Shown: positions 19,301 to 39,719 of the stretch, one piece after another
How positions within the stretch are numbered: position 1 is the stretch's first letter
How the letters are laid out: the number at the start of each line of letters is the position of its first letter
Assembly (NCBI GenBank): GCA_008692225.1
Contig: VICG01000013.1
Location: forward strand, 496,001 to 560,000
Source of the DNA: Monilinia fructicola
Taxonomy: Eukaryota; Ascomycota; Leotiomycetes; Helotiales; Sclerotiniaceae
DNA: 64,000 nt
Reading direction: 5' to 3'
Notes under the pieces: generated by a model
What the model was told of the DNA's origin: nothing
Database searches by the model: none
What the model saw: only the letters and a program-made list of their open reading frames with translations
Made by a program: the position numbers and the translations under genes

Positions 19301-20578
19301 GATGGCGCTGTAAGAAAAAGTTGAATGGCGAAAGGGAGGGTAATCTGATTGTATAGCAGTATCTGATTTGGTCAAAATGGGCCACCTCTTGAATACGACC
19401 AAGGTTTGGAATAATAATTACATAATTCTGATGCAAAAAGTGTAGTTTTTCATGAAGGAGAACCATCATTTACCATAGTAGTCAAATTCCGCGTCAAAAT
19501 TGGAAAGCTCCAAGGCATCCATAGACATAGCTTCACCATGGTAGAGGCTCAAATCTTGCTGCCCCTTACTAGTGGCTTTTTTCAATATGAAATGGCTTTG
19601 GTAACTAGAAAATGGGATCACTGGTGGACTGCTAAGAGTTCGATCAATGCTTTTGAATCCAGTATATCTTTTTCATGTAAAGGATTGAATGAGACCTTTG
19701 CCATCTTATATTGCGAAGATCCGATAATGCAAAAGACACAAGTGCAATGCGCTGGCAATGGGCTCAGGTGACCATTCAGAATATTTTAAGGTGTTAATGG
19801 TCAGTGACTTCTGATTCTAGACATCAATGTGTTGTTTGCGTGTTGATATAGCTCACCAATGGCTTCTCTATGAATCAATCGAGCCTGAATGGAAAGTAGA
19901 TAGTGGATTTTATCATAAATCTAATTGCAGTTCTACCTAAAGCGTAAGGGATTACCCATCCACTACCCCTTCACCGTACGCATCAAAATCATGGCTACTT
20001 GCGACTTGGTACGTGAGTAGAATTATGATGTCGTTGCATAAGAAGGCAGCACGTCGTTCAATACATGTCCTTCATTAAATGAGCCAAATCAAAACCAGAA
20101 ACTAGGGTTGAGACAAGCGAAATACTCCCCATACTTTCCCTCAGTTTGTACGCTTTGTTCTTCGCGGTTTCACTGGCCTGCTCGAGTGTTTTCTAGTTAT
20201 TAATTGGGGGATTCTGTGAAATATTGAATGAGAGTGAAAATAGATAGCGACAGTACCATGGTGAGGTGTAATTAATAGCGAATATTCCTAGCACGACCTC
20301 AACAACCTGGGGTGAGTAGAAATCAAGGTTCAGGTTCGATCTTTTAGCACGAGATGCTTCTACAGGCAGTGTCAGGACACTGATGACACATTCTTCTTTA
20401 CTTGTGAACTCCAAAGTCGGAAAATCCCCTATCATGCCCATTGAACTTACATATATACCTGAGTAGGTAACCGAAGCACTAATTTGCTATAGGGGTTGAT
20501 CCATACTAGAATATTCGCCCAATAAGGGGTATCTATACTAAAAACTCGCTTGCTTCGTCATCAAACATATGATAAACT
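16352..20578. other. AT-rich gene-poor stretch
   Basis: More than 4 kb without a credible gene. Open frames are short, and none shows a domain or consistent splice pattern. An AT-only block of alternating TA lies at about 17410-17450, and a CATT/CGTT tandem at about 17315-17345. CCTAGG palindromes occur at about 17000-17020 and 17450. Confidence 0.55.
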
Positions 20579-20596
20579 GCTGTGATGGCCGAGTGG

Positions 20597-20655
20597 GTAC
20601 GTAACTGATTACCTCTTCTAACCATTTCCACTCAATACTAACACATATTCATCAG
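20597..20655 (+). other. Spliceosomal-like intron inside the tRNA D-loop
   Basis: The 59-nt insertion begins GTACGT, has a perfect TACTAAC branch motif at 20636-20642 and ends CAG at 20655, with the branch A 14 nt before the end. Its removal joins GCCGAGTGG to TCTAAGGC, the standard Leu D-arm. Known eukaryotic nuclear tRNA introns normally lie only between positions 37 and 38. Confidence 0.75.
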
Positions 20656-20675
20656 TCTAAGGCGATGGTTTTAAG

Positions 20676-20687
20676 TTCTCAGGAATT
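20676..20687 (+). other. Canonical tRNA intron (37/38)
   Basis: Twelve nucleotides between G37 and position 38 of the anticodon loop. Removing them leaves a 7-nt loop on a perfect 5-bp stem, as expected for tRNA splicing endonuclease substrates. Confidence 0.75.
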
Positions 20688-20736
20688 CACCATTATCGAA
20701 AGATGCGAGGGTTCGAACCCCTCTCGCAGCAATAAA

Positions 20737-20742
20737 TTTTTT
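20737..20742 (+). terminator. RNA polymerase III terminator
   Basis: A run of six T begins six bases after the tRNA 3' end, with a further T5 run a few bases later. This is the usual stop signal for Pol III. Confidence 0.8.
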
Positions 20743-22038
20743 GTTTTTGTCAATTCAGAACATTACCCCACGTGCTCCCCACCTGCAGGAGGTGGGGTAT
20801 GGTGGGGTAATATGGCGCTGTGGCACTGTGGCTTTTTTTTCTCTTGGCGATGTCGGTGTCCCCTGAAAGTTTGGCGAGGGGGGCATTATAAAAGACATCG
20901 ATAGGAGCAATATATTTGATCTTCAAGGAAATCAATCAGAGGTGAAAGCTTTCGTAGGTGTTGGTTTGTTGCACAGAGTTACATCATGTCAAGGCATTTG
21001 TTTGCTGCTTGCTTGGTTCCAGTCCAAGGTAAGTGTTCATCTTTTGTCCGGCGATCTCAAGAGAAATATACCAGAATATGAGTTGACAACAATAGATTAT
21101 CGACAGTAGTTAAAGTTTGTCACGTAATGAGCGTAATTAGAATTCTACAAATGGTATATATTATTGGGATCGAAGTATATATGTGGACAAGTATAAGAAC
21201 TCGTCCCAATCGTATATTGTCATCATTAGAGTGTACAGACTGTTATGCCCGTATAACAACTCAAGAAGATAATACTAACTACCGAGAAGATCCAATCTAG
21301 CTGCGAAAAGGAATGAATTCAGAGAGGTGATTCAAATGAGACACCAAAGGCTTGGTACCTGAAATTTGACTACCAGGAGACTTTCCTTTTTTCGGAGTAC
21401 ATCCACTTCCTTTCTACTGCTCTTTTCATTTCCGATTATGAGTGAGGTATATAAGCTTGATAAAAAAGAAAAAATCTGGGGAAAATGCGGCTATACATGA
21501 ATTCCAAGTTAGGGAATTTTCATCTACTAACCTGCCCACGATAGACATTCACACGTAAATTATTACTATGTTTATTCACTTATATTTTGGTGTGATATCT
21601 ATCTGCTAATGATCAAGAATCTCTGTGTCGTCAAGATTTAAGTTTCCAGCAAAATATTCCATTTCAATTTCTTCTCTTTGAACAATCCTACGGCGGAAAC
21701 ACTTTTCATGTAAATCTATGTGGCCGACCTGAGTAGAAGTCTTCTCTACACTATGGCCCAAATGCGGCATTTATCCGAGCTTTAAGATATGATGGTAATG
21801 ATGAGAAGAGTAACAATGAAAATTGGAACCTATCCCATGTATTGATTTCTATGCATTCGTCTTCTCATTCATCAGCTCCTGGCGAAGGCTCGTCTCTGAA
21901 TATTGAGTAGGCAATAGGCTTTATGTCTTTCATCTCACCCACTATTTGTTTATCCAGTAATTGATTGTTATCCCAAGTTAGATTAAATACTGTACTGTGG
22001 ATAATTTGCATCATATCATTAAGATAGTCATTGAATTA

Positions 22039-37515: not shown

Positions 37516-39719
37516 ATGTTTCTCGGCAATGGTGGCGATGTTCTAGCTGATGGCTCATGATCATGAAAACTGTTTAGTATCTAATTAGTAATTAGCATCT
37601 ACCTAGTGCCTACCTAGGTAGTACCTAGTGCCTAGTATCTAGTACCTACGAGGTAGTACCTCCCTTTCTCGTACCTACCTACTCCTTGCAATCGTTCGAG
37701 TAGCTTATGATTGCGAGGTCTAGGTCTATACTCATCAATACCTACCACATTTACCTACAAAAATGCCTCATTTCATATTGCAGTTGAGAGATTTATTTGA
37801 AACAAACGGATCTCACTCTAGGAGCTTGAATCTTTGACTACACACATACACACACACATACATACCTACAGAATAGGTATAGCATTAACAAGTAGGTGGT
37901 CTATGAAGTATCATAGTTTGTTTGCATTGATCATCTACATTATATCCAAACTCATCCCATCAGCACACCAGAATCTACACCAACCTTCGCCAGCTTCAAT
38001 CTCACCCGAATCCTGCTCCCTTTTGAGAACGACCCCGGGAACAAAAATAGCAAGGCAAGATTGGTGAAACGCGAGGACCTGGCTCTGAATGGCTCGATGT
38101 GAATGTGGTTATACAAAATTAGATCTCATCATCTACTCCTTGAGAGGGTATCTAACATCAGTTCGTACGTATCTTACGAGATGTTCCAAGGCGTGGGAGG
38201 ACAAATCGATGTCCAGCTCTTTGGGGCTGTGTGTATGGGTGATACTATTATTACTGATACTGGGTATCCAGCACACAAATTGCAAAGTGTTGGCGTACTG
38301 AGAAACATCATTTCGTTGGAGCTTGAGGAATGTTGATTGAGGATTGGAGGAGCCGAGAAGGTTGATGTTTGGAATTATATCTAGATCTGCCGTCGAGATA
38401 GAAAATATGGAGGAGAGATATGCGAAAGAGAAAGACTCCGATCCTCTCGCGTGGGAAAGGGAAATGACTCGGCACGTGCAGTCATTCAGCTGAAGCTGGT
38501 GCTCGAGATGTCGTTTTGGGAGGATGGAAACTTCCACGAATGAATTCGGCAACACGCAGTTGTATCTTTACGTGCAAGTTTGCTGGTGTTCAGATCGCTG
38601 CGGATTGATGTTGATTTGATATCTCGTCGGTCCAACCTCATCTTCATCTTCATCTTCCACTTCAACTTCTTCGTACGTGTCGACTCTCACGTGTATGAGC
38701 TGCCCAAGTCAAAGACTTAGCGTTCCCGGTTAACTCATTGATCATTTCGTATGGCCATGTAGGGGCTAATTAGGCTGTGTCTGACCTGTGCCGGTACAAT
38801 ATCAATGGTTCTCGTTACTATCAATATCTACGTGACCACCTATTGTTATTTTTTCGATCGTTGATCATCTTGGTGAGGAAATTCGTTATATATCAAGATT
38901 GCCTCGATCATGCAGGAGGCTCTGGGATTTGGTTAATGGGTTCTGTCAATTGAATCGTTAACCATGGGAGTGGGGGCGCCGTCGACGTCTTACTGATTGA
39001 TCCGGATCCTCCGTTGTACGGCGGCTCTTGTTTGGTCGGTCAACGCTTTATGGCTGAATTTTGATGGAGTTTATGTCCGAATATATATCGGATCGTGCGA
39101 CTCTACATTTTCTACGAAAATCAGGATTACATATCAGGCCTTGGGTCTTGTTGCTGTCAACATTCGACTTCACGCTAAGTATCCTTTCTTTCGATTTTTG
39201 CACCCCCTCATCAGTCATGTCTTCCACCGTGTCAATACCCAGCAATAGCTCCGCAATAGTATTCTGCGAGAGCATCGTGCATCAATTTAAATCTAGATAA
39301 AAGTTCTTATGTACCTGAATGGGCTTGCAGTGGGTGGTCTTTGTTCTTTCGGGGTAGAATCGAAGGTGATCGTTAAGATATGCCAATTATGACTTCAATC
39401 TATCATTTGCCACCGCAGTTGTATTTACGCTTCTTTATTCTTCTTCTTGGTGGTGGTGGTAGTCGTCGTCATCATCATCGTTGTAACAACAACTATATCT
39501 TCGAAGCATTTCATGATAGGATGCAAAGATTATGCTGGACATTGACCATGGGCAATACATGGGAACATGCAAGTTTTTGCGAGAAATCAATACCAGTCAG
39601 CACTAGAATGTAACAAAATGTTGCTCTGGCTAAGTTTTCTCGGCTTTGGTCATTTGAGTTCCCATCTGGGTCAATGCCCTTTGTATGTATGGCTCTTGGT
39701 TGAATGATTTCTTTCGTTC

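Follow-up and report, generated by a model that had tools for sequence, protein, structure and literature searches.

A spliceosomal-type intron within the D-loop of a tRNA-Leu(UAA) gene of Monilinia fructicola

A tRNA-Leu(UAA) gene of Monilinia fructicola, present at positions 20579 to 20731 (plus strand) of the window (viz. the entire stretch of 64,000 nucleotides that was analysed), is interrupted in its D-loop by a 59-nt block (20597 to 20655, plus strand), which begins with GTACGT, contains the branch-site-like sequence TACTAAC, ends in CAG, and is missing in the other copy of this gene found in the genome. We regard it as moderately probable that this block is a U2-type spliceosomal intron, which was gained by a working tRNA-Leu(UAA) gene and is removed by the spliceosome from a transcript made by RNA polymerase III (Pol III). 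The basis for this reading in the sequence is provided by the block itself, its splicing signals, the intact tRNA surrounding it, an uninterrupted paralogue and a comparable block in a gene for tRNA-Ile(UAU), and these observations suggest that the machinery for splicing of mRNA may also mature a tRNA in M. fructicola.

The gene is made up of three exons and two introns, as indicated by its sequence, its paired stems and the cloverleaf fold that is obtained when the D-loop block is taken out. Based on sequence and stem pairing, exon 1 (20579 to 20596, plus strand) comprises the 5' strands of the acceptor stem and the D-stem and the D-loop through G19, whereas exon 3 (20688 to 20731, plus strand) comprises the 3' strand of the anticodon stem, the variable arm, the T-arm, the 3' strand of the acceptor stem and the discriminator A. 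Exon 2 (20656 to 20675, plus strand), which was read from the sequence, holds the remaining D-arm, the 5' strand of the anticodon stem, the anticodon TAA (20672 to 20674) and G37. BLAST and pattern searches led to only one other tRNA-Leu(UAA) gene, at C8:1741069-1741172 (L002), which has an uninterrupted D-arm and a 22-nt intron at position 37/38; a further pattern match, at C15:5966, contains two mismatches and no tRNA is called there by ARAGORN. By comparison with the C8 copy, an ordinary tRNA intron of 12 nt was placed at position 37/38 of the window gene (20676 to 20687, plus strand). The stems of the window gene are paired throughout (acceptor stem 7/7, with one G-T pair; D-stem 3/3; anticodon stem 5/5; T-stem 5/5; variable arm 3/3), and in minimum-energy folds a cloverleaf is formed with the block out, while no D-arm is formed with the block in. 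The identity of this tRNA as UAA follows from the stem pairing and from the C8 copy, for which the ARAGORN call is Leu(taa). The original prediction had spoken of a tRNA that is perfect apart from the block; this holds for the paired stems and the cloverleaf, but the 12-nt intron had gone unmentioned.

The elements of a Pol III promoter and terminator are also present in this gene. The sequence TGGCCGAGTGG (20586 to 20596, plus strand), which we take from the consensus to be the A box, abuts with its last base the start of the block, the B box GGTTCGAACCC is found at 20710 to 20720 (plus strand), and a run of six T residues (T6; 20737 to 20742, plus strand), a Pol III terminator by consensus, lies 5 nt past the tRNA; all three had been described as intact earlier, and they are so. 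Upstream of the gene there is a CATCAAA element (20559 to 20565, plus strand), and the motif CAWCAA is present in the 50 nt that precede 67 of the 116 tRNAs called by ARAGORN (inclusive of the window gene), versus 4.3% of 20,000 random 50-mers from the plus strand of the window. A run of four T residues (20669 to 20672) is present in exon 2 and is common to the C8 copy, and no TTTT occurs inside the block. With its stems paired and its promoter boxes intact, the gene displays no visible decay.

The block is inserted directly after G19, and upon its removal the flanking GAGTGG and TCTAAGG are joined into the uninterrupted D-arm that is seen in the C8 copy, as expected from the claim made earlier that the removal restores the D-arm of a tRNA-Leu. 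The extent of the block and its three signals were likewise confirmed when the coordinates were rechecked, although its boundary is uncertain by one base and GT-AG is one of two options. The A in TACTAAC (20636 to 20642, plus strand) that would serve as the branch point is located 14 nt before the last base of the block, which fits the usual distance between the branch point and the AG in introns. Two mRNA introns of the host in the window (n = 2), each placed by spliced comparison with the proteins of two relatives, are of a similar kind, as one of them (16235 to 16166, minus strand; 70 nt) reads GTACGT ... TTAAC ... CAG, and the other (60101 to 60052, minus strand; 50 nt) reads GTACGT ... 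CAG and has no clear TACTAAC-like site. This comparison leaves out the regions at 15.7-16.1, 14.0-14.3 and 60.7-61.2 kb, for which the best solutions were ambiguous or odd. In its GTACGT, its CAG and its length of 59 nt versus 50 and 70 nt, the block thus has the signals and the size of a U2-type intron of this host.

A chance origin of the signals was rejected based on shuffling of the block with its composition preserved, where only 1 of 2,000,000 sequences carried the loose and strict sets of signals, both of which were defined after the block had been seen. In first-order resamples, the loose set was found in 1 of 500,000 sequences and the strict set in none, and a search of both strands of the 64-kb window for the strict set at lengths of 45-80 nt led to the block and one low-complexity stretch at 37649. 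Other classes of introns were also considered. The block differs from a canonical tRNA intron in that it is located after G19 in the D-loop, and position 37/38 is occupied by the separate 12-nt intron. Group I and group II self-splicing introns are much larger than 59 nt. Such an intron was rejected on account of this size and of the lack of a match to any self-splicing intron family when positions 19500-22000 were compared by cmscan with 4227 Rfam families at E values up to 1, a search that missed the interrupted tRNA as well. An introner element was rejected because the block has no repeated copies in the genome, where a 301-nt query (E values up to 0.001) matched only itself and the body of the C8 tRNA. 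Lastly, an intron of the bulge-helix-bulge (BHB) type was rejected because no strict motif of this kind was seen at the two junctions of the block in eight registers, the best central helix showing 3/4 pairs and the outer and inner helices 1/3 each. The tests applied to the sequence are therefore in support of the original prediction that the D-loop of this gene contains a spliceosomal-type intron.

A block of the same kind is found in the D-arm of a second tRNA gene. This gene (L088), which is for tRNA-Ile(UAU) and is located at G000:C4:57384-57539 on the minus strand, is not called by ARAGORN and was read by eye among the places obtained from a survey for B boxes. Its block (C4:57473-57526) is 54 nt long and reads GTAAGT ... 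TACTAAT ... CAG, its branch A being, as in the Leu block, 14 nt away from the end, and in shuffles of it the strict set of signals was found in 0 of 2,000,000 sequences and the loose set in 2. The two blocks differ in their positions, as the block in the Ile gene is placed between nucleotide 13 of the D-stem and the D-loop and, unlike the block in the Leu gene, splits the A box (as judged by eye). When the joined Ile gene was compared with the genome by BLAST, only its own locus was matched, which makes it the only tRNA-Ile(UAU) gene found. The D-, anticodon and T-stems of this gene are paired, but the three outer pairs of its acceptor stem are unpaired in the assembly, which reflects either a slip in the assembly or real damage, and because of these pairs the gene may be dead. 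The presence of a GT-AG block in the D-arm of a second tRNA gene points to a recurring event. More broadly, precursors of tRNAs would be regular substrates of the spliceosome in M. fructicola, mRNA-type introns would have been gained in D-arms at least twice (in Leu-UAA and in the only detected Ile-UAU gene), and the supply of some tRNAs would depend upon the spliceosome; this broader proposal, in which the Ile gene is the strongest argument for a class of such introns, we advance tentatively, giving it a little less than an even chance.

If the insertion of an intron, or of an intron-like sequence, has inactivated one of two Leu(UAA) genes, then the C8 gene will be doing the work, and the tRNA body in the window will still look intact because the insertion is recent. 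We consider this explanation, the foremost alternative to the favoured reading, rather unlikely. The C8 gene lacks the block and, as it is an intact tRNA-Leu(UAA) gene, the copy in the window could be dispensable. It had been stated beforehand that several intact copies elsewhere in the genome would speak for a dead copy, and this expectation is half borne out by the one such copy found. Further, insertions in the D- or T-arms of eukaryotic tRNA genes, according to one review, mostly affect a single member of a large set of synonymous genes, and are supposed to indicate pseudogenes (PMC4090602), and the other gene with a block in its D-arm, that for tRNA-Ile(UAU), has unpaired bases in the acceptor stem as assembled. 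The unspliced window gene is also miscalled by ARAGORN, which reports no tRNA gene in a search of the raw sequence of the whole window and, in its intron mode, names this gene tRNA-Val(CAC) with a 74-nt intron; with the block taken out a tRNA is detected, which is named 'Stop(tta)' because the program does not place the 12-nt intron. Standing against a dead copy, all of the stems that were tested are paired, the A and B boxes, the T6 run and the upstream motif are intact, and the insertion carries the full set of intron signals at the proper spacing, as is expected if its removal mattered.

The comparison of the two Leu(UAA) genes also bears on the integrity of the window gene. Of their 82 mature positions 10 differ; the acceptor stem accounts for 9 of these and the loop of the variable arm for 1. 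The differences affect 5 of the 7 acceptor pairs, four of them at both bases of the pair, and each gene still has its acceptor stem paired at 7/7. Because the changed pairs stay paired, selection has kept the pairing of the acceptor stem at some time since the window and C8 genes split; as far as can be read from the two genes, the pair-preserving changes are a trace of selection on a working tRNA, but this selection need not be later than the insertion. The divergence between these genes is strikingly uneven, nearly all of it being in the acceptor stem, which is odd and has no explanation.

A further explanation places the locus within a longer RNA transcribed by RNA polymerase II (Pol II), from which the block is spliced as an ordinary intron, the tRNA being either cut out of this RNA or never made. 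The signals of the spliceosome normally act on Pol II transcripts, exon 1 of 18 nt together with its leader is short, and a stop-to-stop frame of 99 aa (20605-20904) overlaps the Leu gene; a gene with small exons is possible. However, no reading frame of 250 aa or more is present between 15803 and 40981, the T6 run follows 5 nt past the tRNA, and the closest gene that was placed, coding for a K+ channel protein (96% identical to the M. fructicola protein EYC84_009408 along 90% of its length), lies on the opposite strand, with some 4.2 kb between the locus and the 5' end of that gene; in view of this, we consider transcription of this kind very improbable. We give slightly less credence still to the idea that a nuclease, be it the tRNA endonuclease or a different one, recognises a structural motif and cuts there, for although D-loop introns are published for Cyanidioschyzon, where they are removed in this manner, and for nucleomorphs (PMC4090602, PMC3978253), a strict BHB motif is absent at the Leu junctions in the eight registers and the GT-AG signals, as mere coincidences, are left without an explanation. 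Among the options named in the original prediction, the spliceosomal one is therefore favoured, cleavage by another route, here examined as the BHB type, has no support in the registers tried, and a silent gene has become less likely because of the intact cloverleaf, the pair-preserving changes in the acceptor stem, the promoter boxes and the terminator.

For the favoured reading, i.e. a spliceosomal intron in a working tRNA gene, we infer from the sequence the mode of gain, the transcription, the removal by the spliceosome and the order of the steps. Reverse splicing, or a related kind of intron gain, probably placed the intron within the D-loop of a tRNA-Leu(UAA) gene that was in working order. 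Pol III would transcribe the interrupted gene by way of the A and B boxes, both of which are intact, and the 59-nt intron would then be excised in the nucleus by the spliceosome, after which the D-arm can fold. RNase P and tRNase Z would presumably act next and the tRNA endonuclease, on the 12-nt intron at 37/38, would act last. Points against this reading are the intact C8 copy, the unpaired outer acceptor pairs of the Ile gene in the assembly, a comparison limited to two host mRNA introns of which one has no clear TACTAAC-like site, a U6 match without an intron, and a hairpin in which exon 1 might pair with the intron. The U6 match (L078; G000:C3:2172348-2172450, minus strand), found with 48 of 3205 candidates scored, fits positions 1 to 105 of the 105 in the family model, and because the model is matched across this whole range the U6 gene has no intron. 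In the hairpin (20591-20633), GAGTGGG at the end of exon 1 can pair in the unspliced RNA with TCCACTC, an intron sequence that immediately precedes the branch site; such pairing would bring the branch point close to the 5' splice site and might hide the latter.

The U6 gene of fission yeast contains an mRNA-type intron that is spliced and is thought to have come from reverse splicing (PMC10484740). It resembles the window gene in that a short spliceosomal intron interrupts the sequence of a small RNA of the Pol III class, whereas it differs in that splicing has been demonstrated for U6, while the present case is read from sequence and its host is a tRNA. The argument from neighbourhood that applies to U6 fails for the window gene, because a tRNA is no part of the spliceosome; as a mechanism and by analogy, the proposed splicing of the Leu block is an extension of the U6 case to a tRNA. 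The genes for rRNA, in contrast to the Pol III-transcribed tRNA gene considered here, are multicopy and are transcribed by RNA polymerase I. In the nuclear rRNA genes of ascomycetes, spliceosomal introns are present (PMC11889510), which are like the Leu block in that they are of the spliceosomal type, belong to ascomycetes and interrupt genes for non-coding RNA. The tRNA genes of nucleomorphs and Cyanidioschyzon merolae contain D-loop introns, those of Cyanidioschyzon being linked to BHB motifs (PMC4090602, PMC3978253). These genes resemble the window gene in that the D-arm is interrupted and a second intron is sometimes present in the same gene. However, the introns of Cyanidioschyzon are cut at BHB structures, which in strict form are absent at the Leu block, the non-canonical insertions in Guillardia are 3-24 nt long versus 59 nt here, and the text examined does not describe for these genes the GT, branch and AG signals that the Leu block has. 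The canonical eukaryotic tRNA intron at 37/38 is present in the window gene too (12 nt), and the 59-nt block is outside this rule of position. A published description of a tRNA gene interrupted by a spliceosomal intron was not found among the titles and the beginnings of abstracts that were listed, in a literature that mostly excludes subscription papers and preprints. If the block is spliced, then a single tRNA would owe its maturation first to the spliceosome and afterwards to the tRNA endonuclease, which are held to be separate systems; spliceosomal introns would be able to invade tRNA genes and to persist in them, and the gain of introns in Pol III genes would become testable beyond U6. 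In that case, tRNA finders tuned to introns at 37/38 would also overlook such genes or give them a wrong name, as is seen here with ARAGORN.

Over the loci that were fetched from the genome, ARAGORN made 116 + 2 = 118 unique tRNA calls, inclusive of the misnamed window gene, and GT-AG blocks in the D-arm are present in 2 of 119 genes (the 118 calls and the Ile gene). As ARAGORN finds normal D-arms only, its 118 calls are no unbiased test for the frequency of such blocks. A search with RF00005 was based on 63 scored candidates of 1947. Patterns for same-place introns in the D-loop, which combined an A box with GTANGT, gave 9 matches (with a pattern that is unable to match the window gene itself) and 10 matches; because the reversed patterns used as controls gave more, viz. 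23 and 32, such combinations are no richer than chance, and among the 19 matches only the window gene sits in a locus with a tRNA called by ARAGORN. An exact pattern of the interrupted gene had 0 matches in GTDB contigs and IMG/VR and none in plasmids, but as these collections are prokaryotic or viral, this says nothing about its conservation. The patterns for B boxes gave 173 matches (control 28), 71 matches (control 15) and 45 matches (control 24), the survey with the first of these resting on the matches listed, up to C10. The matches that were fetched are a part of these, chiefly those whose 3' ends fitted none of the tRNA families already in the survey and did not resemble chance. Eleven of the fetched places were without an ARAGORN call and were read by eye (L088, L093, L123, L135, L137, L138, L139 and L142-L145). 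Besides the Ile gene (L088), there are among them two tRNA-like sequences with no visible GT-AG block (L093 and L137) and one that is too short to judge (L143); the other 7 showed nothing convincing. The tRNA-like sequence of L093 (G000:C5:887250-887650, minus strand) has a B box, a long D-loop and a long insertion. L137, together with L115, belongs to a region (G000:C11:392300-393000) with two odd tRNA-like sequences, whose B boxes are about 360 nt apart and of which one is called by ARAGORN; they are unlike the other tRNAs that were seen.
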